Of a DNA stretch of 20,888 bases, positions 5,004 through 17,871 are shown in pieces (positions within the stretch are counted from its first letter, which is position 1; every line of letters starts with the position of its first letter). The stretch is from a virus: positions 1 to 20,888 of IMG/VR virus record IMGVR_UViG_3300025646_000468, one strand, 5' to 3'. Below the pieces are notes generated by a model. It did not search any database and had not been told where the DNA came from. It saw only the letters and a list, made by a program, of their open reading frames with translations. Both the position numbers and the translations under genes were made by a program.

Positions 5004-6041
5004 TTACGCATAGCTCGTGTCTAAAGTTAGGCTTAATTCAGTCGCAACGTGATTGTAAAAACTCGAAAGAGTTGAACCTCGGTTGCTAATCCCTGAAATC
5101 GACAAAACACCTCCAGTGGTGGCAGAGTTCAATTTAATCACTGTGCTGGTTGGCGCAACGCCTGAACCGCCTGAACCATTCCAGAATTCTGAACTGGTGT
5201 TATCCGTCGAGTAAATCAAAACGCCATCTTCTCGGATTTCGATTGGGTAACTGGAATTGTTGGTTTGCAAATCTGGATTGGCTACTTCGTCATCGCGTTT
5301 CTTAATCACAGGCGTGACGTTTTTGACAATGCCCCAACTAAACGGAATTCTCAGCGGCACACCCACTCGGTGCGTGTTGCCGTCAGAGGTAAACGTTCCG
5401 GTTGTGCCGTACCCACTCGTCACCGGAATGAAGTCTTTGTCCTGCAAGGTAAAGGTGTTTGAACCAGTGCGAACAACGTAATAATAGTTATCGACTGCAA
5501 CTGATTGATATTCGAGCAGTTCCCCATAGGAATCCATCTGCTCAAAAATGATAACCGTGCCTGTGACAAAGCCGTGATTTAAGGCTGTGATGGAAACCGG
5601 AGTTCCTGCGCCTGAAGAAATAACTGCTTCCACAAAGGCAAAATTTTCGGTCAAGGTAAATGGCCTAGCGCCTTTCGTAAATTCGGTGTCTGTGAGCGCA
5701 AAGGTGAGTTCTGTATCAGTGACGGATTGAAGAAAAATGTTTCCAGAAAACAAGTCGCTTCCTGCCTCGCCCCATTTCAAAGTCGTTGCATATAGCCCAG
5801 GTGCGGTCAGCAGGTCTTCGTATCTCTGCAAGGCGAACGGATGGCTTGCGTTTAGATAATCGTTGGTAAGTGTGATATTGCCAAACTTCACACCAATCTT
5901 GCCTGAATCCTCAACCTGTCCAAGTTCAAGCGAAGGTATTCTCTTGACAAAAGGCTGATAAAAGTTCTGCCCAGCAAAGCCTCTAATTGAACCTCGGTAA
6001 GCTGTGCCGTCAACCGTGATCGTGGCAAGTAACTGGCTCAT
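5004..6041 (-). CDS. Tail-tip/distal tail protein
   Basis: A 345-residue protein that follows the tape measure gene with a TGATG overlap, the place of distal-tail or hub proteins in siphophages. The first 120 residues (LLATITVDGTAYRGSIRGFAG onward) resemble the beta-barrel opening of tail-tip hub proteins. A middle part (about 150-225) holds ITALNHGFVTGTVIIFEQ and YYYVVRTGSNTFTLQD, a motif pair typical of a small ubiquitin-activating-like or Ig-like repeat found in many phage tail proteins. There is a Gly/Ser-rich linker near 285-295. No catalytic residues are recognised. Confidence 0.6.
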   Translation of the reverse strand: MSQLLATITVDGTAYRGSIRGFAGQNFYQPFVKRIPSLELGQVEDSGKIGVKFGNITLTNDYLNASHPFALQRYEDLLTAPGLYATTLKWGEAGSDLFSGNIFLQSVTDTELTFALTDTEFTKGARPFTLTENFAFVEAVISSGAGTPVSITALNHGFVTGTVIIFEQMDSYGELLEYQSVAVDNYYYVVRTGSNTFTLQDKDFIPVTSGYGTTGTFTSDGNTHRVGVPLRIPFSWGIVKNVTPVIKKRDDEVANPDLQTNNSSYPIEIREDGVLIYSTDNTSSEFWNGSGGSGVAPTSTVIKLNSATTGGVLSISGISNRGSTLSSFYNHVATELSLTLDTSYA

Positions 6042-9000
6042 CAGATGTACCTAGCCGGAAGAAACTTGTCGCCTTGCCTTCTCGTTCTTTCTCTCAGTTC
6101 GCTTCTGAATTCTTCAATGCTGGCCTTCGTCTGGCCTTGCATATCGGTATAAACATTCACCTCGGTGTCGTTCTCGCGAACTGCCACAATCAATTCAGCC
6201 AATAAACGTTTGACCTCTGGGTCGCTCGTTGCGTTGATTGCGGCTGAATCGCCAGAGTTCAAGCGGTTCAGATTGCTCACGCCATAACGTCTGACGGTTT
6301 CTGGTGATAGAATGTATTCGCCTGGAGAAAGCATAGCTGGAATGGTGTCGAGTGGGTCTACTATTCCGCCTCGTCTAAAGCCGATTTTTTGTACATCAAA
6401 TCCGCTGCTTAATCTTCCAAATGAATATCTCTTTGCAGCTTCTAACTCGTCAAATCCAGATATTTCAGTCTGAGTACCGTAGTCTGTAAAAACATAATAG
6501 TTTCGCTCTATTAAGCCGCTTGCTAAGTACGTTGCAGCTAAATCAGAAACTGACAAATTCCTGTTTTCCCTATCACTTAGACTTGAATCAGCGTAAGTAG
6601 TGACTCCAGCATTCCCATCATAGTAGTAAACTGTTGGATTATCTGATTTATACAATCCGCTCGTCACAACGTTTCCACCTTGACCCAATGCCGCAAGTGT
6701 TGAGAGTGTTTCACCTTCAACCGCTGCGGCACTTTGATTCATGTCAATGACTAAAGCTGTGACTGCGCTTTGCAAGGTGCTGCCAAGATTCTCAACAGCC
6801 AACGTTATTGAGTCCGTATTGATGTCAACGTCAATCTGAGCTTGAATTACCGGAATATTTGCGGCAATGGCATCGACAACAGCCTGAATGATAGGCGTAT
6901 TTGAAGCGGTTGCACTGACTACGGCTTCAATATTTGTATCTGAATTGCTTGCGGCAACTGCGGTAACAATCGCTTCAATGTCCGTATCTGATAAATGAGA
7001 TTGAACAGCAGTTACGATTGAAACGATTTCCGTATCGGAAAGGTTCTGGTCTTCAATTGCCGTGACCACTGCTTCAACAACCAGGTCACTGTTTGCTTCG
7101 TCAATTACGGTTTGAACCGGAACGTCCACCACCAAGGCGCGGAACGTCAACGCTAGAACCAATCTGTCCAAGCCTTCAATCACCTCTTCCACACCCAGCC
7201 CGAATTCTTCTGCAACGTCTGTCAGTTGCTCGCGGACCTTGTCAATTTCACTTTGTGGCATGGTCGCCTGAACGAATTCTGCAACCTCTTCAATGTCTGC
7301 TAGGACTGAATTGAAAATGTTTTGATAGCGGCTCGAAGACTTGAAAACGTCTTGGGCGCTCTTCAGGTAGGTGTCAACGAAAGCTTGAAATTCTTTGACG
7401 TTTTCTTCTGTGGCTTCTGGGTCTAGTGCTGCCGCAAGCAGTTCTTGGTATTGAGTAGTTGCAGAAGTGAAACGGTCTGAAGCAGAGGCGGTTGAATATT
7501 GAGAGAATACCAGGCTTTCGGCTTGGTCGCGTAGGTCTTGGACGAGTTCAATGATATTGTCGAAGGTTTTTTCTAAATCACTGAGCAGTTTGTCCACCTG
7601 TGCTTGGCCTTGCTGTTGAAGCAACAAAGCGGCTTCTCGCTCGCGTTCTTCGTTGAGTTTTTGAAGTTCTTCTTGTTGCTTTTCGAGCAGGTCATTTTGT
7701 GCTTGGGTCGCTCGGTTCACCGAATCCAAAAGCTGACTTCTTAGTTCTTCATCATTGATAAGGTCCGCCAAGGCTCTTTGCTGTTCTATTGTGGCAATGG
7801 CCTCGTCATACCTAAACTGGATTTGTTCTTCTGCGCTTAGTTTTTGAAACTCAATTGCCGCAATCTGGTCTTCTGCGGATTGGGTCAAATCATCCAAGGC
7901 GTTGAGTGGTTCTTGAATGTAGGCTTCAATCAATCCTTGAATAACAATCTTCGATTTCTCTTCTGTCTCAGCAATCTTCTGATTTACTTTTTTTATTTCC
8001 TTACCTATTTGATTCATAAGATAAGGAGCAGATGAAGCTGCTGCTAGTGTTTTGAAATTGATTATTTGCACAGCTTCCAGGCTAGCAACTGCCTGTTCAG
8101 TGTTTTGCGTTATTCGGTTGATAACTTCGGTCAGTCCCAAATCTGGAATCAAGTCAGCTAGTTCGTCAATCTTTGGTTGCAGTTGATCCCTCGTTGACGG
8201 AGTGTCTGCAATGTTTTCAAAAATCGAATCGGCTTGAGCAAATGCTTTTTGCTGATTGGTTGGTCCTCCAGGTCTTGAACTGCTAAAGGCTGCTTCTAAA
8301 TCTCTGGCAAGTCCACCTCCAAAAATATAACCATTTGGGCCAAGTCCAACCGTGTCAAGCAAGCCTTCTGCGGCATTTGTTGCGTTCTCAATCAATGCTC
8401 CAATCAAGCGATTGATTGCACTGATTAAATCGCCCAGAATGTCAATCAGTGGGTCGATTGTGTCGAAGAGAATTTCAAAGCTTTTGTCGATGGCAGCAGC
8501 AACTTTTTCGTTACTCAAAATCAGCTTGGCAGCGGCTTCATCCAAGGATTTTGATTGAGCAATATTTGCGGCTCGGCTCGCGTTTGGACCTGCGCCAGAA
8601 ACACCGGAAACAATCGCTCCTGCGGTGCGGTCAGTCAGACCAAACTGCTCTTTGAGGTAGTTGGTGGCTTGTTCTAAATAGGTGAGATTTTCTTTGTTCT
8701 GCTGGAGTTCGATTTTTCGTTTTTGAATGTTTGATTCAAGAAGTTTGTTCTCAAGATTAAGAAATCCCACTGCTTCTTTAAGAGGCACATTCTGTGCGCC
8801 TAGGATCTCAACTGTTTTCGTGTTTGAATTAACTGCTTCAGCAATTGCTTTAACTTGTTCGCCTCTAGTTTCTAGGATTGCATCTTCTAACTCTTTAATT
8901 TCTTCAAGACTGTTTATTTCCTGAATGTAGTTTGGGAATCCTCCAATTGCTGCGGTTACTCGCTCAGGTCCAATCGTAGGAAAGGCGTATTGTGAACCAG

Positions 9001-9919
9001 AAGGCGCAGCACCTCGAATGACTTGATCTAAATTTGCACCACTTCCACCAGTGGCTCGAGTTGTCAAGCCCAAGAAGTTGGATAGTTTGTCAATGCCGCT
9101 TGCTAGTCCGTCAATGAATCCAGTGAAGAATTTGCTCGCGCCTAGCTTGTCATCAATGGCTCCAATTAAAGAAGTGAAGCTATTGGCAACTCGCTGATTG
9201 GCTTGCTCAATCGTTGAGGCAGAACTGTTGGCTTGTTGGGTTAAGGCTTTCTGGCTGGCAAGAATAGCGTCAAAGAATTTCTTGTTACTGAGCTGTCCGT
9301 CTGTGACGAACTTTTTCAAACCTCCTGCGGTAAGTCCTAGCTGCTTTTCGACTTCTCGCAGCAAATTAGGCATTCCATCAATCAGAGAGTTGAACTCTTC
9401 GGCTTGAACTCTGGGACTGTTCAAGGCTTGCCCTAGCTGAAGCAATGCGCCTTGTGCAGATGCTGCTGAAGTGCCGGAAGCCTTCAGTGCAAGTCCTACG
9501 GTTTCGGTTAGGTTGATGAGGTCACGTTGACTTGCTCCCAATTGCTCGGCAGCAATACGAAGGCGAGAATAAAGCTGTCCAACGTCTTCAAGAGGCAATG
9601 CGGTTTTTTGTGCTACAAGAAAAAGTTGTTGCTGAACCGCAAGCTGCTGTACTAGCGAGTTTGTGGCAAGCTTGACGCGATTCTCAAACTGAGTCATTGC
9701 GTCAGATAACTGCGCTAGTTTTTGAACACTGATGGCAGCAAAGAAGGCAACCAATCCGGCCTTGGCCTTGTTGATGGCTCCTTCAAATTTTCTTGTGGCT
9801 TGTGCCGCTCTGTCGAATGACTGCGACGATTTGGTAAGTTCTCTCTCCAGCCTGCCCAAACGGTTAATGGCGTCACGAATCTCTAATTCAATTTCAATCG
9901 TGGATGCAGCGTTTGCCAT
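6041..9919 (-). CDS. Tail tape measure protein
   Basis: A 1292-residue protein that sets tail length and leaves the virion with the DNA. The N-terminal region (about 45-250) has the tape-measure domain: FAAISVQKLAQLSDAM, LEDVGQLYSRLRIAAEQLG, ALKASGTSAASAQGALLQLGQAL and VQAEEFNSLIDGMPNLLREVEKQLG. Long helices and coiled coil follow (700-790 is Gln/Glu-rich), with a hydrophobic stretch near 475-505. The C-terminus carries the usual GGIVDPLDTIPAMLSPGEYI signature. Residues 944-1025 are a degenerate repeat. It starts in a TAATG overlap with the G-T chaperone frame. At about 0.15 nm per residue the tail would be near 190 nm, an estimate from the family. Confidence 0.95.
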   Translation of the reverse strand: MANAASTIEIELEIRDAINRLGRLERELTKSSQSFDRAAQATRKFEGAINKAKAGLVAFFAAISVQKLAQLSDAMTQFENRVKLATNSLVQQLAVQQQLFLVAQKTALPLEDVGQLYSRLRIAAEQLGASQRDLINLTETVGLALKASGTSAASAQGALLQLGQALNSPRVQAEEFNSLIDGMPNLLREVEKQLGLTAGGLKKFVTDGQLSNKKFFDAILASQKALTQQANSSASTIEQANQRVANSFTSLIGAIDDKLGASKFFTGFIDGLASGIDKLSNFLGLTTRATGGSGANLDQVIRGAAPSGSQYAFPTIGPERVTAAIGGFPNYIQEINSLEEIKELEDAILETRGEQVKAIAEAVNSNTKTVEILGAQNVPLKEAVGFLNLENKLLESNIQKRKIELQQNKENLTYLEQATNYLKEQFGLTDRTAGAIVSGVSGAGPNASRAANIAQSKSLDEAAAKLILSNEKVAAAIDKSFEILFDTIDPLIDILGDLISAINRLIGALIENATNAAEGLLDTVGLGPNGYIFGGGLARDLEAAFSSSRPGGPTNQQKAFAQADSIFENIADTPSTRDQLQPKIDELADLIPDLGLTEVINRITQNTEQAVASLEAVQIINFKTLAAASSAPYLMNQIGKEIKKVNQKIAETEEKSKIVIQGLIEAYIQEPLNALDDLTQSAEDQIAAIEFQKLSAEEQIQFRYDEAIATIEQQRALADLINDEELRSQLLDSVNRATQAQNDLLEKQQEELQKLNEEREREAALLLQQQGQAQVDKLLSDLEKTFDNIIELVQDLRDQAESLVFSQYSTASASDRFTSATTQYQELLAAALDPEATEENVKEFQAFVDTYLKSAQDVFKSSSRYQNIFNSVLADIEEVAEFVQATMPQSEIDKVREQLTDVAEEFGLGVEEVIEGLDRLVLALTFRALVVDVPVQTVIDEANSDLVVEAVVTAIEDQNLSDTEIVSIVTAVQSHLSDTDIEAIVTAVAASNSDTNIEAVVSATASNTPIIQAVVDAIAANIPVIQAQIDVDINTDSITLAVENLGSTLQSAVTALVIDMNQSAAAVEGETLSTLAALGQGGNVVTSGLYKSDNPTVYYYDGNAGVTTYADSSLSDRENRNLSVSDLAATYLASGLIERNYYVFTDYGTQTEISGFDELEAAKRYSFGRLSSGFDVQKIGFRRGGIVDPLDTIPAMLSPGEYILSPETVRRYGVSNLNRLNSGDSAAINATSDPEVKRLLAELIVAVRENDTEVNVYTDMQGQTKASIEEFRSELRERTRRQGDKFLPARYI
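6844..7090 (-). repeat. Degenerate ~16-residue repeat in the tape measure protein
   Basis: Residues 944-1025 are built from about five copies of a unit close to SDTxIEAIVTAVxxxx (SDLVVEAVVTAIEDQN, SDTEIVSIVTAVQSHL, SDTDIEAIVTAVAASN, SDTNIEAVVSATASN, TPIIQAVVDAIAAN). The DNA copies share short blocks such as the complement of GTATCTGA or GTATCGGA but have drifted. It looks like an old duplication that lengthened the tape. Confidence 0.7.
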
Positions 9920-10368
9920 TATCGTCGCTTTCGTGGTCTTGGGGAAGGTCGAGCGGTTGAAGACTTCTTCTTCTGCAAGTCTCGTTTGCGCTCGTTCTCT
10001 TTCTTGCGGTGACTCGTCACTTCTCGGTCAATCGTCACCAGTGCGGTGTAGACTTCAACCGTGTTGATTTCGGCTCTTCTCAGATAAGCGTCAATCGCTT
10101 CTTCGCGTAGAAAACCAATGTCAAAACCCAAGTCTCGTCCGGTGGTGTCCAAGTCTCTGAAAGCCTGAACCGCTGCCAGGTTGCGCTCGGTCAGCGTCAA
10201 ATTGTTTGGACAAACTGCACAAGGCGGCTCTTCGTCTTCCTGCCAAACGTTGTCAGCAGTTTTACAGCACCAGACTGCTTGGTATCGGTCGCCTTCCTGA
10301 ATGCCATGCTCTTGCGAGTCACCTAGATAAGCCGCTCGTTCTAAGACTAAATCTAGGTAACTTTTTAA
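9919..10368 (-). CDS. T extension of the G-T tail assembly chaperone (-1 frame)
   Basis: This is the -1 reading frame reached by ribosomal frameshifting near the end of gene G. It stays open for 149 codons, giving a G-T fusion of about 267 residues, and then stops in a TAATG overlap with the tape measure start. The frame contains no ATG. Its only start-like codon is a TTG at 10200 that would discard the first 56 residues, so frameshifting is the better explanation. The extension has a Cys-rich centre (WCCKT and PPCAVC, fusion residues 152, 153, 168, 171) that could bind zinc, then a helical segment and a very basic tail (RPSPRPRKRR). In lambda-like phages G-T links the tape measure to tail-tube subunits during assembly. 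Confidence 0.85.
   Translation of the reverse strand, partial: LKSYLDLVLERAAYLGDSQEHGIQEGDRYQAVWCCKTADNVWQEDEEPPCAVCPNNLTLTERNLAAVQAFRDLDTTGRDLGFDIGFLREEAIDAYLRRAEINTVEVYTALVTIDREVTSHRKKENERKRDLQKKKSSTARPSPRPRKRR
10318..10361 (-). promoter_or_regulatory. Frameshift-stimulating stem-loop downstream of the slippery site
   Basis: In the transcript GTTACCTAGAT pairs with ATCTAGGTGAC as an 11-pair stem with one U-G pair, around a 22-base loop. It begins six bases after the slippery heptamer, the spacing at which such structures pause the ribosome in known -1 frameshift sites. Confidence 0.8.
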
Positions 10369-10721
10369 TTTCCCTCTTCGTCATCGACTTTCGCCTGGGC
10401 TAAACGCATCAGCTTCAAGCTAACATGCGTTGCCATTTTATTGAGTGCTGCGTCTTCTCCAACAAACAGGCTTTTGTTCTCAACACTACAATCTTCATCG
10501 AATGACCAGGACTGCACACAAGGCACAAAAAGCTTACGAGCGAACATTAATGAATCAATTGTCTGCTTGCCTTTCTGTGTCTTCGTGGCTGCGTTCAGAG
10601 CCTCAGTCAAAAGCTTTTGGTGAGGTAGAACACAATTGAAGGTTGCTTCTAGGTCCAAGTCTGCGTCATTGAAATCAATCGTGACTTCGTTTGCTCGCTG
10701 GACATCAAAAATAGATGGCAT
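10365..10721 (-). CDS. Tail assembly chaperone G
   Basis: A 118-residue chaperone for tail assembly, translated in the zero frame. Size, place between tail tube and tape measure genes, and sequence (acidic, starting MPSIFDVQRANEVTIDFNDADLDLEATF) fit the lambda gpG-like group. The last codons are GAG GGA AAT TAA, so the gene ends on a slippery heptamer, and some ribosomes would continue into the T frame. The start is six bases after the tail tube stop with no strong ribosome site, so translation probably depends on coupling to the tube gene. Confidence 0.85.
   Translation of the reverse strand: MPSIFDVQRANEVTIDFNDADLDLEATFNCVLPHQKLLTEALNAATKTQKGKQTIDSLMFARKLFVPCVQSWSFDEDCSVENKSLFVGEDAALNKMATHVSLKLMRLAQAKVDDEEGN
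10368..10374 (-). promoter_or_regulatory. Slippery heptamer GGGAAAT for -1 frameshift
   Basis: Read in the zero frame as G GGA AAT, this is the X XXY YYZ form needed for both tRNAs to re-pair after slipping back one base (GGG AAA T). It is directly followed by the G stop codon. The lambda G/G-T site is GGGAAAG, which differs only in the last base. Confidence 0.88.
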
Positions 10722-10727
10722 GAATTA

Positions 10728-11981
10728 TTACTTATAAATGAGTGAGAAAGCGGCAGCGTCAGTTGCAGAAGAGCCTTGAGTCAAGGCAAAGTCTACGCTT
10801 GCGGCTGCGGCTCCATCTTGCTCTGTTCCTGAAATGGAAACGCGAGCGGAAGGAATGATGATTTGCACGATACTTCCTGCGGTGTCGCCAACCTGCATGC
10901 CAATTGCGATTTGCTCTAGTCTTGCGAACTGCTCGAATCGGTAGGCTTGTGCTGGTCGCATAACAAAATCAAAAGAACCCGTGACGGTGATGGCGTTGCT
11001 GACATAAGCAGCGGCTGGGTACTTGTCTCCGGTCATTTCTGCCAAGCCTGGGTCGCCAAGATTCTTAGAAACGCTCATGGAGAAGCCAGTGGCTAGAAAC
11101 TCGTTAGCTGACGCAATCAAGCTTCCGGCTGCGGTGTTCTGTGCTGCTAAGTAAACTTGAGCGGCTGAAGTGGCGATTGGCTCATAAGTCGAAAGCGTAG
11201 CGGCTGGCAAGTGAGGCACTAGGTAGTCAGTCGAGTCAATACTGAAAGAGTCGCCAGAAGCAGCCTGAACCCCAACCGTCGCGGCTGTTGTGCTTGGTGA
11301 ACTGATGGTTGCAGCACCTCCAGTGTTTACTTGCGTATCGCTGGAGTCGTAAATGTCAACCAGTTGCCCAGCAAAGAAGTAATCGCTAGCGACTGCGTTT
11401 GAGGCAGGATCTAAGGTTACGGTTGCAGGTGAAGAGTCTGTCACGCTGACACTTGTTCCAGTCGCGTTGACTGGTCCAGAGTAGCGGATTCGAGAGGCGC
11501 GACAGTTTGCGTTCATCGTAAACACTCCGTCTCTCGTAATGTCTACGCTGAAGCCTTCGACAACGGTTCCATTCGCCACATAGAGTTTGTAGGTGTCTAC
11601 TAGTTGCGCCACTTGGAAAGTATCCGAAACTCGGCTGAAGCTGTAAGTGTTTGATACTCCAGCAGAAGTGGTTAGTGTGCCAAACACCTTTTGCAACAGT
11701 GTGGATTCGGCTGGAGCCGTGCCAGCAGAGCCGGAAGGCTTGACCAGAAACGGAATATCAAAGGTTGCTCGCTCGGCATAATTCACAAAACTTCTGTTCT
11801 GAAGCAGGCGAGTGCCAACCTCAGAAATATCTGAAGTGTTGAACGTCTGACTTAGCGCCAGAGGTTCAGTCGTGGTGAATGCGTCAGAAGCGGAAACTGC
11901 GACATAACTGCCAGCAGTTGATTCGGTTGTAATATACGGTTGACTACTTCTTAGTCTTAGATAACGGTCTGGAATCGCCAT
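10728..11981 (-). CDS. Major tail tube protein
   Basis: A 417-residue protein that forms the tail tube. It lies between the tail terminator and the G chaperone, and its composition (Ala, Ser, Thr and Val rich, beta-structure, few Cys) is that of phage tail tube proteins. It opens MAIPDRYLRLRSSQPYI, and the final part (VSFALTQ-like segment at the C-terminus, YPAAAYVSNAITVTGSFDF near 320-340) fits a tube fold. Residues about 175-265 (SVSVTDSSPATVTLDPAS onward) look like an inserted domain that makes it longer than most tubes. A strong AAGGAG ribosome site sits eight bases before the ATG, one of the best in the window, in line with an abundant protein. Confidence 0.82.
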   Translation of the reverse strand: MAIPDRYLRLRSSQPYITTESTAGSYVAVSASDAFTTTEPLALSQTFNTSDISEVGTRLLQNRSFVNYAERATFDIPFLVKPSGSAGTAPAESTLLQKVFGTLTTSAGVSNTYSFSRVSDTFQVAQLVDTYKLYVANGTVVEGFSVDITRDGVFTMNANCRASRIRYSGPVNATGTSVSVTDSSPATVTLDPASNAVASDYFFAGQLVDIYDSSDTQVNTGGAATISSPSTTAATVGVQAASGDSFSIDSTDYLVPHLPAATLSTYEPIATSAAQVYLAAQNTAAGSLIASANEFLATGFSMSVSKNLGDPGLAEMTGDKYPAAAYVSNAITVTGSFDFVMRPAQAYRFEQFARLEQIAIGMQVGDTAGSIVQIIIPSARVSISGTEQDGAAAASVDFALTQGSSATDAAAFSLIYK

Positions 11982-12709: not shown

Positions 12710-12918
12710 TTGGCTTTAGGCTTTCGTGCTGTTTTTGTGGTTCGAGTGGTCACTGGTGGCGCTTCTTCTGGCTCAAGTCCTTTGGCTCTGTTTTCATAGA
12801 CAACGGCCTTGCCCATGTTCACCAGTTGCTGTGCCTCTTTTGGGTCAACGCTAATCACTTGGCCCACTCTGACAGGTCCACCGTTTGCCACCGTGCCTCT
12901 GATAATCTGAATCTTCAT
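12706..12918 (-). CDS. Small head-operon protein, 70 residues
   Basis: A short protein with a beta-rich N-terminus (MKIQIIRGTVANGGPVRVGQVISVD), a helix with KEAQQLVNMGKAVVYE, and a basic Pro/Thr/Lys tail (TTRTTKTARKPKAK). Such proteins are common between capsid and head-tail joining genes, but their role is not known to me. It overlaps both neighbours by ATGA. Confidence 0.7.
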   Translation of the reverse strand: MKIQIIRGTVANGGPVRVGQVISVDPKEAQQLVNMGKAVVYENRAKGLEPEEAPPVTTRTTKTARKPKAK

Positions 12919-13454
12919 TGAAATATTCTCTGAAGTCGTTCGTTATAAACAATCACTCTTGCTGGATTCTGCATTAAATCTCTTGCCTCAATCCACTTGC
13001 CTTGCTGATCTTCCTGCACTCTTGTTGGCTTTTTGTCTAAATCCCACTGATGCCAGTATCGACGGTTGCCCGTGTAGAAATCCACTCCACAAATGTGAAT
13101 CTCTGAGTAGCCCAAATAATCTGCTGTCCAAAGTGCTTCTGGTCCTGAAAGCCGAATGAATGGGACAATTCCGCCATGAATATCTTTGTCTCTTAGATTC
13201 TTTGGGTCATGGTGAATAATCGCTGGTGAATCGTATTCTTTCAGGTGCGCTACCATTCGGACGTCATGCGCGTAACACCAGGCAAGTTCCCCCAAGAAAA
13301 GCAAACCGTGATTATTAACGCTTGCTAAGTCGTAATCTTTGGAACCAATCCGCGCCTTCGCTTGCGCCAAATCGGAAGGCGCAGAAGGTCCGCCACAAAG
13401 TAAGATACAAGGTCGAGTTTTACCCCAACCTTGTAACTCGTCTAGCTGATACAC
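12915..13454 (-). CDS. Rossmann-like accessory protein, DUF115-type
   Basis: A 179-residue protein with a glycine-rich nucleotide-binding-like motif CGGPSAPS (20-27), a strand-and-loop ASVNNHG (45-50), and a C-terminal SGPEALWTADYLGY plus EIHICGVDFY (103-127). This order resembles the DUF115/MAF-type Rossmann domains linked to glycan transfer, where GGPS, the SGP helix and a final GxD motif recur. The similarity is by eye and modest. It is not a known head protein family, yet it sits directly after the capsid stop with a GTG start, so it is probably co-expressed with the head genes. Modification of virion or host surface glycans is possible but unproven. Confidence 0.6.
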   Translation of the reverse strand: MYQLDELQGWGKTRPCILLCGGPSAPSDLAQAKARIGSKDYDLASVNNHGLLFLGELAWCYAHDVRMVAHLKEYDSPAIIHHDPKNLRDKDIHGGIVPFIRLSGPEALWTADYLGYSEIHICGVDFYTGNRRYWHQWDLDKKPTRVQEDQQGKWIEARDLMQNPARVIVYNERLQRIFQ

Positions 13455-14717
13455 TCAGGCGACAGTGACGTCCTGCGCTGCTGCGAAGCTTTCAGCATGA
13501 GCAACCGCAATATCACAATCTTGGTAGAAGAACAGATTGGTCGTTGCGGTTCCGGCACTGGAGTATGGGTCCACCAGTACGTCGAGTGCTGAGAAGAAGC
13601 CCACATAAAGGTCTGACCAGTTGCCGAAAATCAGCGAGTACGGTGAAGAACTCGGTGCTTGCGTGGTTTGAACAACTGGATAACCAAGCATGGAATCCGG
13701 TGTTGGCATAATCATCCGCGAGTCAGTGCTGGAAGCAACCAGTGTCTGCATCAGTTTGCCCACAACTGCCGGATGAGTTACCCAGCGAAGGTTTCCAAGT
13801 AGAGCGTTGTCTTGACTGACTTCGGTCATAATATCAACGACATTGCCATAGCTTAAGTTCGCGTTGCCACTGGTTCCGCCACTGGAAACGTCCCCGATTC
13901 CAGCCGTGCTGAGAATTCCGGTTGGCTCGTTTGAACCACCACCTTTGATTGCCACGTTGTCGAGTTTGGCTGCGAAGATTCGAACCATGTTATTACGAAT
14001 CAACTGCTCGACAGATGGGTCGCTCTGGATCATTAATTCGCGAGTCACGGCTACTTTGTTCGCCAAAAGCTTTGGCGTCATGGTGACTTGTGCGAAGTCA
14101 GGCTCGCTATTTCCAACTGAGCCACCTTCCGCAATGAAAGCCGCCGCGGTGCTGGTGCTAATTTTGGGGATCGCCACGTTGCCTTGCAAACCGTTCAGCA
14201 CGGTTGCGCCTACTTGCCCAAGAATTGAGGTTGAAATCAAGGCGTCGATAAAGCGATCACCTCGGTAGTCCTCTGGAACGATATTTGAGCCTGCGCCAAA
14301 GGTCGCTCCGGCTGCAGTTGATACCGTTCGAGTCTGCCAACCCCAATCCGGCACAAAAAAGCCTTTTGGTTGTCGCTTTTGCGTCTTTGCGAGTTCCTGG
14401 CTGATTTCCATTTCAAAACCAGCTTTTGACCAATCCTTCTGGTCTGCGGCTCGGATTGCTCGCACCAAGGAATAGTTGCGCTTCTCTTTCGGTGAGGCGT
14501 CAACGCTGAAGTCGATTGGCTTGGAAGTCTTCTTCTCAAGCAGCATGGCTTGGAATTCAGCTAGGCTTTTCTCTTCCTGAAGTGCTCTGAAAGCCAAGTC
14601 ATACTCGTTATGCCGCTTACCAAGTTCGAGAATCTGAGAAGCTTGGTTGCGGTACTCTTTCAGTTGGTCTTCTGGTTGCCGTGTGTTTACCGGCTCTTGA
14701 ACTACTTCTGCGCTCAT
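13455..14717 (-). CDS. Free major capsid protein from an internal start
   Basis: Codon 330 of the fusion gene is an ATG preceded by AGGAG with a six-base gap, a strong ribosome site lying exactly between protease and capsid parts. Starting here gives a 420-residue capsid protein (MSAEVVQEPVNTRQPEDQLK...) with an intact delta region and HK97 fold, the normal length for this family. It would let the phage make hundreds of capsid subunits for each protease. This is inferred from the site and domain boundary; proteomics would decide. Confidence 0.7.
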   Translation of the reverse strand: MSAEVVQEPVNTRQPEDQLKEYRNQASQILELGKRHNEYDLAFRALQEEKSLAEFQAMLLEKKTSKPIDFSVDASPKEKRNYSLVRAIRAADQKDWSKAGFEMEISQELAKTQKRQPKGFFVPDWGWQTRTVSTAAGATFGAGSNIVPEDYRGDRFIDALISTSILGQVGATVLNGLQGNVAIPKISTSTAAAFIAEGGSVGNSEPDFAQVTMTPKLLANKVAVTRELMIQSDPSVEQLIRNNMVRIFAAKLDNVAIKGGGSNEPTGILSTAGIGDVSSGGTSGNANLSYGNVVDIMTEVSQDNALLGNLRWVTHPAVVGKLMQTLVASSTDSRMIMPTPDSMLGYPVVQTTQAPSSSPYSLIFGNWSDLYVGFFSALDVLVDPYSSAGTATTNLFFYQDCDIAVAHAESFAAAQDVTVA

Positions 14718-15704
14718 TGTTTTCTCCTGAATTGCAGAATTGTCATTACCGGAAATTTCCGGCTTGGATCTGCCTACCCCAACACTGGAGTCAGCAGGAA
14801 TGGAAACCATGCTCACTTCGAGCGGTTTAAACATATTGACTCTGTAGAGCGGCTTGTCTTTGTAGCCGTTCTCGTCTTTCGTCATTCCTTGAATCTGATA
14901 GCCGATTGAGACGTTGCCACGAATCCCATCGACTACGTCACGATAAACTTCTTCCGCCATTGCGTTTTTGCTAAACCGGACTTGCGCTCTCAGTTTGTCG
15001 TTGTCCATATAGGCTCGTTCTACGACTCCAATTTGTTGCCTTGCGTCATGGTCCAACAACAGTGGCGCTTTGCCTGAAGACATGAATTCCATGTCAACGC
15101 TTCCGGCATTGTGTTCGAGAACTTCATAGCCAAATTCTCTTTCAACCGGATTCGTTGACGAAATGCTCATCATCACTCGACGGTCTGACTCGTCATCCAT
15201 CATGCGAACGCTTCCGGTTCGGTACTGAGTTTGAACTGGTAAGTCTCTTGTCTCGACTTGTTCCACTTCTCGCTCTTCCGGCTCTTCTGCGACTTGTTCA
15301 GCCTTGGCAAACGCCACAATGTATTCGTCGTTAGTCTCTTCGACGTCAATAACGTGTCTTTCGGTCATGCTAGTTAAATCCATGTTTCTCTCGCTTTGAT
15401 TCACGATTTTCTCACTCCAACTTTTGCCAGCATCCCCACTCCACAAAGCCCAGGCGATGCGTCCGTTGCTTGGATAACCTTTTTCGCCTGGTCGAAAACC
15501 TTCGGCTTTTTTGTCAACTTCATGGCGAGCGAAAAAAGATTTCATCCTCTTCACGGTTGCCAACGGTAAACTCTTGCCGTTGCTGATGTCTCTGGCGCGA
15601 GCGATTCCGACACTGGTTCCGCCTCGTCCAAATTCTCGTCTCCACTCTAGGCCACGGTTTGCCTCGGCAATCATGCCCTCGGTTGGCTTGTGGTTTTCTG
15701 CCAT
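13455..15704 (-). CDS. Prohead protease-major capsid protein fusion
   Basis: A 749-residue three-part protein. Residues 1-105 (KPTEGMIAEANRGLEWRREF, GGTSVGIARARDI, RMKSFFARHEVDKKA, GRIAWALWSGDAG) form a small domain often seen beside phage proteases. Residues about 155-315 are an HK97-type serine protease with His219 (LLLDHD), Ser266 (GNVSIGY) and probable Glu297 (LEVSMVSIPAD), spaced as in HK97 gp4. From 330 on is an HK97-fold capsid protein with a helical delta region (to about 425) and the fold proper to the end (FGAGSNIVPEDY, AAAFIAEGG, KLLANKVAVTRELM, GNLRWVTHP). The start overlaps the portal stop (TAATG). The protease should trim the delta region during maturation. Confidence 0.9.
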   Translation of the reverse strand: MAENHKPTEGMIAEANRGLEWRREFGRGGTSVGIARARDISNGKSLPLATVKRMKSFFARHEVDKKAEGFRPGEKGYPSNGRIAWALWSGDAGKSWSEKIVNQSERNMDLTSMTERHVIDVEETNDEYIVAFAKAEQVAEEPEEREVEQVETRDLPVQTQYRTGSVRMMDDESDRRVMMSISSTNPVEREFGYEVLEHNAGSVDMEFMSSGKAPLLLDHDARQQIGVVERAYMDNDKLRAQVRFSKNAMAEEVYRDVVDGIRGNVSIGYQIQGMTKDENGYKDKPLYRVNMFKPLEVSMVSIPADSSVGVGRSKPEISGNDNSAIQEKTMSAEVVQEPVNTRQPEDQLKEYRNQASQILELGKRHNEYDLAFRALQEEKSLAEFQAMLLEKKTSKPIDFSVDASPKEKRNYSLVRAIRAADQKDWSKAGFEMEISQELAKTQKRQPKGFFVPDWGWQTRTVSTAAGATFGAGSNIVPEDYRGDRFIDALISTSILGQVGATVLNGLQGNVAIPKISTSTAAAFIAEGGSVGNSEPDFAQVTMTPKLLANKVAVTRELMIQSDPSVEQLIRNNMVRIFAAKLDNVAIKGGGSNEPTGILSTAGIGDVSSGGTSGNANLSYGNVVDIMTEVSQDNALLGNLRWVTHPAVVGKLMQTLVASSTDSRMIMPTPDSMLGYPVVQTTQAPSSSPYSLIFGNWSDLYVGFFSALDVLVDPYSSAGTATTNLFFYQDCDIAVAHAESFAAAQDVTVA
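14724..14728 (-). promoter_or_regulatory. Internal Shine-Dalgarno for the capsid start
   Basis: The bases AGGAG on the minus strand, six bases before the ATG at 14717. It lies inside a long open frame, where a perfect, well-spaced ribosome site has no other evident use. Confidence 0.72.
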
Positions 15705-17826: not shown

Positions 17827-17871
17827 GGCAGGATTGGCAGAATTGGCAGGATTGGCAGAATTGGCAGGATT
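17827..17871. repeat. Five tandem 9-bp repeats after the HTH gene
   Basis: GGCAGGATT and GGCAGAATT alternate five times without a break, which can also be read as two and a half copies of an 18-bp unit. They lie six bases after the stop of the XRE-like HTH gene and before the gpW-like gene. Regular spacing near one helical turn suggests a multi-site protein target such as an operator or packaging site. In the frame of the HTH gene they would read as Asn-Pro-Ala/Asn-Ser-Ala, beyond its stop codon. Confidence 0.85.

Follow-up and report, generated by a model that had tools for sequence, protein, structure and literature searches.

Gene arrangement at the G-T junction

How is an open reading frame of 149 codons translated when it contains no ATG and lies, in the genome of an uncultured marine tailed phage, between a probable tail assembly chaperone gene and the tape measure gene? 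In the window, the whole 20,888-nucleotide stretch of viral DNA analysed here, gene G (10365..10721, -) encodes a zero-frame product of 118 aa that is recognised as an ORF with homologues in three clades, and the -1 frame extension T (9919..10368, -; 149 codons and a stop) is predicted to be produced solely as a G-T fusion. The T frame ends at 9919, which is the start of the tape measure gene (6041..9919, -; Pfam TMP_3, E 5e-52; TIGR02675, E 1e-17). Upstream of G lies a probable major tail protein gene (10728..11981, -), which gave no family match of its own in PHROG and Pfam searches and is assigned only by its position between G and the tail terminator, the latter identified by PHROG (phrog_4204, E 7e-23). 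With the major tail protein placed in this way, G and T occupy the location of a lambda-type G/GT pair.

An earlier note on this DNA had stated that the -1 frame stays open for 149 codons up to the tape measure gene, that it has no ATG, and that an ordinary annotation would begin at a TTG at 10200 and miss 56 residues. All three statements were confirmed. The G-T fusion comprises 267 residues, with the junction after a -1 slip reading ...EEGN-LKSYLDL..., and the annotation-style ORF from TTG 10200 has 93 aa, so that the 56 residues are lost. ATG is absent from the -1 frame in the window and in all of the close relatives examined, and a -1 frame that is open for 149 codons is expected from base composition with p about 5e-4.

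Elsewhere in the window, a single 749-aa ORF (13455-15704, -) encodes the prohead protease fused to the major capsid protein, with an extra N-terminal region (phrog_2859), an arrangement shared with CRP and S-CBS phages. Between the capsid and head-closure genes, an ORF of 179 aa that starts with GTG (12915-13454, -) showed no convincing match in PHROG, Pfam, or NCBIfam. A short tandem repeat with 2.5 copies of the 18-bp unit GGCAGGATTGGCAGAATT is situated at 17827-17871, a short distance upstream of the gene that occupies 17793-17197 (-).

Conservation of the slip site and the -1 frame

The 3' end of G reads GAA GAG GGA AAT TAA. As the earlier note had described, the heptamer G GGA AAT (10374..10368, -) is in X XXY YYZ phase directly before the TAA stop of G (10365..10367, -), which adjoins the 3' side of the heptamer and supplies the first nucleotides of a 5-nt spacer. 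The 19 likely genes of the window comprise 6048 codons and contain 18 in-phase X XXY YYZ heptamers (0.003 per codon), and GGGAAAT at the end of G is the only one of the 18 that lies directly at a stop and gives access to a long -1 frame.

A G-based scan of IMG/VR returned 46 close loci, in which the heptamer was judged where the locus spans the junction, and it was identical in every one of those that do. A T-only scan, in which the heptamer was not used, returned 46 metagenomic viral loci, including clade B (L221-L223), with a T identity of 56-60%, and clade C (L224), with a T identity of 38-39%. These T homologues span 38-98% identity, and all 46 of the loci carry GGGAAATTAA with the identical heptamer, down to the 38% level. 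Among 29 distinct close relatives aligned over 800 columns, the longest invariant DNA run in G and T is exactly GAAGAGGGAAATTAA, which contains the heptamer, whereas 86 of the 118 third positions in G vary. The GAAGAGGGAAATTAA context is unchanged even at a G identity of 53%: in L082, L084, L086, and L087 (also L089-L092), G is 53% identical to that of the window and T is about 86-89% identical, and the slip site at their boundary is the same. Such a pattern in the L082/L084/L086/L087 group suggests that G may have been exchanged, or may be changing rapidly, around a fixed slip site. Among the papers searched, none ties the heptamer GGGAAAT (or GGGAAAU) to frameshifting in phages.

In the close relatives with a complete downstream stretch, the -1 frame runs for 148-152 codons with neither a stop nor an ATG, and the other two frames of the T region contain 7-9 stops on average. 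The earlier note had held that relatives lacking the heptamer or breaking the -1 frame would argue against frameshifting, and none was present among the relatives found. Concerning the host, a GTDB scan with the close-clade T alignment found nothing, and a scan with a wider T alignment found one clade B contig of 48,397 bases (L225, NZFK01000029.1) that is assigned to a Rickettsiales MAG (MED721). This contig has the same size as a viral IMG/VR contig and is possibly mis-binned; it is a weak hint of a Rickettsiales host.

A covarying hairpin downstream of the heptamer

A hairpin (10317..10362, -) follows the slip site, with a calculated energy of -19.2 kcal/mol and a z of -4.25 (0 of 200 shuffles as good). 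Its outer stem pairs 10362-10351 with 10328-10317, and an inner helix pairs about 10348-10345 with 10333-10330. The earlier description gave a stem of 11 pairs with one U-G, a loop of 22 bases, and a spacer of six bases. The stem is located where it had been drawn and is extended by a 12th outer A-U pair (10362/10317); hence, the spacer is 5 nt rather than six. The loop has the length and the place described, but it is not open, as it holds the inner helix, which has 4 pairs in the window and up to 7 in relatives and is less regular than the outer stem.

In the alignment of relatives, 97.1% of the outer-stem cells are paired, and two-sided changes are observed at four pairs. Such changes occupy 9 cells, compared with 2.5 in shuffles and 0 in slid versions, and RNAalifold independently recovered nine outer-stem pairs, three of which covary. 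The covariation that the earlier note had suggested looking for is therefore present as compensatory changes, although the independent events are few because the two-sided changes sit in few lineages. The hairpin z ranges from -2.5 to -6.8 across the clade of the window, where a covarying stem begins 5 nt after the heptamer, within the distance of about 5-9 nt expected for a stem-loop-stimulated frameshift, and is about 0 in clades B and C, where this stem is absent. The hairpin at the slip site is limited to one clade, and since clades B and C keep the heptamer without an adjacent stem, this element is perhaps dispensable. In clade B (L221-L223), a short stem and a pairing between the loop and the downstream sequence can be drawn by eye only. 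The proposal that the long loop might form a pseudoknot was not supported: we counted 7 conserved loop-downstream helices of at least 4 pairs, against 7-29 in the background. An Rfam search with the hairpin gave no match above the cut-off.

Protein families and folds

Neither G nor T matched Pfam or NCBIfam above the cut-off. The AlphaFold2 model of G (pLDDT 79.6) was compared by Foldseek, and it matched annotated tail assembly chaperones in BFVD with E values of 4.5e-4 and 8.9e-4; among PDB entries, the HK97 tail assembly chaperone 2OB9 scored best, though weakly (E 0.24). T has a weak match to phrog_3817, "tail chaperonin" (E 0.0014), and its fold search gave no match. Residues 34-53 of T (read from 10368-9922, -) include a CC...PPCxVCP motif that is conserved in all three clades, and this cysteine-rich conservation suggests a putative metal-binding site in the chaperone extension.

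Comparison with known systems

The locus resembles that of lambda in its position between the major tail and tape measure genes, in the G GGA AAN near the end of G, in the -1 extension T, and in the pair of products G and G-T, which are predicted here. The A site of the lambda heptamer is occupied by AAG, and that of the window by AAU. Unlike lambda, the heptamer of the window touches the stop and is followed by a strong covarying hairpin, and the G and T of the window do not clearly resemble any curated family in sequence. The tail assembly chaperone frameshift of lambda has been described (Levin 1993; Xu 2004, 2013, as cited in PMC5009743), and the haloarchaeal tailed viruses HCTV-1, HCTV-2, and HCTV-5 (PMC5009743), with archaeal hosts, are also among the closest known systems. 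The -1 signals of the IS3/IS911 type, as presented in PMC4066793, likewise combine a heptamer with a downstream stem-loop or pseudoknot and include the weak X XXA AAY in natural use, but they concern different genes, and the hairpin of the window differs in showing no pseudoknot signal.

The Roseobacter phages CRP-811, CRP-821, CRP-831, and CRP-406, and the Synechococcus phages S-CBS1, S-CBS3, and S-LBS1, have an in-phase heptamer directly before the G stop, as in the window, and their -1 frame stays open as far as the tape measure gene or almost as far. Their capsid proteins are 34-43% (CRP and S-CBS) and 33% (S-LBS1) identical to that of the window. The heptamer in these phages is A AAA AAC instead of GGGAAAT, and the T of the CRP phages is shorter than that of the window; a comparison of the G profile with the CRP and S-CBS G profiles, which are thin, detected no homology. 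In CRP-831 (L048, 9173-9331), CRP-406 (L049, 9522-9695), and CRP-811 (L052, 8933-9091), A AAA AAC lies directly before the G stop, and an unannotated -1 extension fills the 138-nt space that precedes the tape measure gene, whereas the deposited records list only G. A stop-abutting heptamer is also found in Pseudomonas phage JG054 (A AAA AAC) and Labrenzia phage V1 (GGGAAAG). Because the CRP phages, S-CBS1, S-CBS3, S-LBS1, JG054, and Labrenzia phage V1 share this layout, it is, judged from their sequences, recurrent, though not universal, as the Mu-like phage JBD88a has no stop-abutting heptamer. The mean distance from heptamer to stop is 26 nt in SEA-PHAGES phages and 36 nt in the Xu phages (PMC10885494).

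Proposed mechanism and alternative readings

The presence of GGGAAATTAA in 46/46 loci, the invariance of GAAGAGGGAAATTAA, the covariation of the stem, and the selection on the -1 frame all support programmed -1 ribosomal frameshifting at the G-T junction, like that of lambda G/GT, which we consider very probable here. The gene order, the weak fold match of G, and its BFVD matches agree with the interpretation of the earlier note that the genes are the tail chaperones G and G-T. The elements of the site and the selection on them were read directly from the loci, and from these we infer how slippage, its rate, the moving tRNAs, and the roles of the products would fit together. Most ribosomes would terminate at the TAA after translating G. 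The hairpin 5 nt past the heptamer would pause a minority, which would slip back one base, with tRNA-Gly moving from GGA to GGG in the P site and tRNA-Asn moving from AAU to AAA in the A site; the slipped ribosomes would miss the adjoining stop and continue through the 149 residues of the T domain. By analogy with lambda (PMC5009743), G would coat the tape measure protein and G-T would probably recruit the major tail protein.

The earlier note had called the site a textbook one. The elements are all present, but AAU in the A site places the heptamer in a class that is weak in E. coli. According to PMC4066793, the best heptamers in E. coli are those on which the A-site tRNA finds a cognate codon again after the slip (AAG), the move from AAC to AAA is poorly tolerated, and X XXA AAY heptamers as a class have low efficiency because tRNA-Asn re-pairs poorly on AAA; these are E. 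coli rules and may not be those of the host. AAU in the A site should behave like AAC. A weak heptamer may suit a low ratio of G-T to G, which the hairpin would raise in the clade of the window.

Three other readings of the junction were weighed. T might be a separate protein that starts at TTG 10200, or at another TTG or GTG, without any frameshift, and a gene caller would indeed report the 93-aa ORF from this codon. However, TTG 10200 is missing in many close relatives, and it is preceded by GTGCAGTTTGTCCAAACAAT, which contains no Shine-Dalgarno sequence. Moreover, the 56 residues upstream of the TTG evolve as a protein in the -1 frame, with 45 of 54 third positions varying compared with 10 of 54 second positions; the codon-position pattern in T fits this frame both before and after the TTG, and 18 of the upstream residues are invariant across the three clades. 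The -1 frame is therefore open and under protein selection without a start of its own, and since this selection extends upstream of a TTG that is not conserved, the TTG was rejected as the start of T and independent initiation is very unlikely. Equally improbable are slippage at the level of transcription and an indel, whether a sequencing error or an evolutionary event, that split one gene. Nothing specific favors either. The A7 runs (AAAAAAAC) of the CRP-type relatives might conceivably cause slippage during transcription, but GGGAAAT lacks a long homopolymer. Furthermore, the 46 loci, which derive from many independent assemblies, all break the frame in the same way, and both the zero-frame stop and the -1 frame are retained.

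The third reading accepts the frameshift and changes its route: slippage would occur mainly in the P site with the stop codon in the A site instead of in tandem on the heptamer. In the window and in nine further phage records that were inspected, the heptamer is immediately followed by the stop, and the disfavored re-pairing from AAU to AAA in bacteria (PMC4066793) leaves room for a contribution of slow termination. In contrast, the entire GGG of the heptamer is invariant, and slippage of a single P-site tRNA-Asn would not need it. Sequence cannot separate the two routes because both give the same peptide; we regard termination-coupled slippage as unlikely, and tandem slippage on the heptamer as the preferred route. 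A broader proposal, which we offer tentatively as a possibility, is that X XXA AAN followed by a stop is a recurrent design of siphophages, marine and other, in which slow termination and slippage of A-site Asn would set a low G-T ratio and the gain or loss of a hairpin, lineage by lineage, would tune it.

Significance

The lambda-type frameshift mechanism has long been known, and what is seen here, by comparison of relatives, is selection on the slip site and on the RNA hairpin. The heptamer touching the stop, which is shared with several other phages, the AAU codon in the A site, and the hairpin confined to one clade are less usual details and represent mild novelties. The locus adds a very probable G/GT frameshift in an uncultured coastal phage group, together with evolutionary evidence for the slip site and its stimulator. 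The isolate records of the CRP phages, S-CBS, and S-LBS1, among those checked, annotate G without the full extension. Furthermore, an AAU A-site codon that touches the stop would allow a natural test of the slippage rules that were worked out for bacteria in E. coli.
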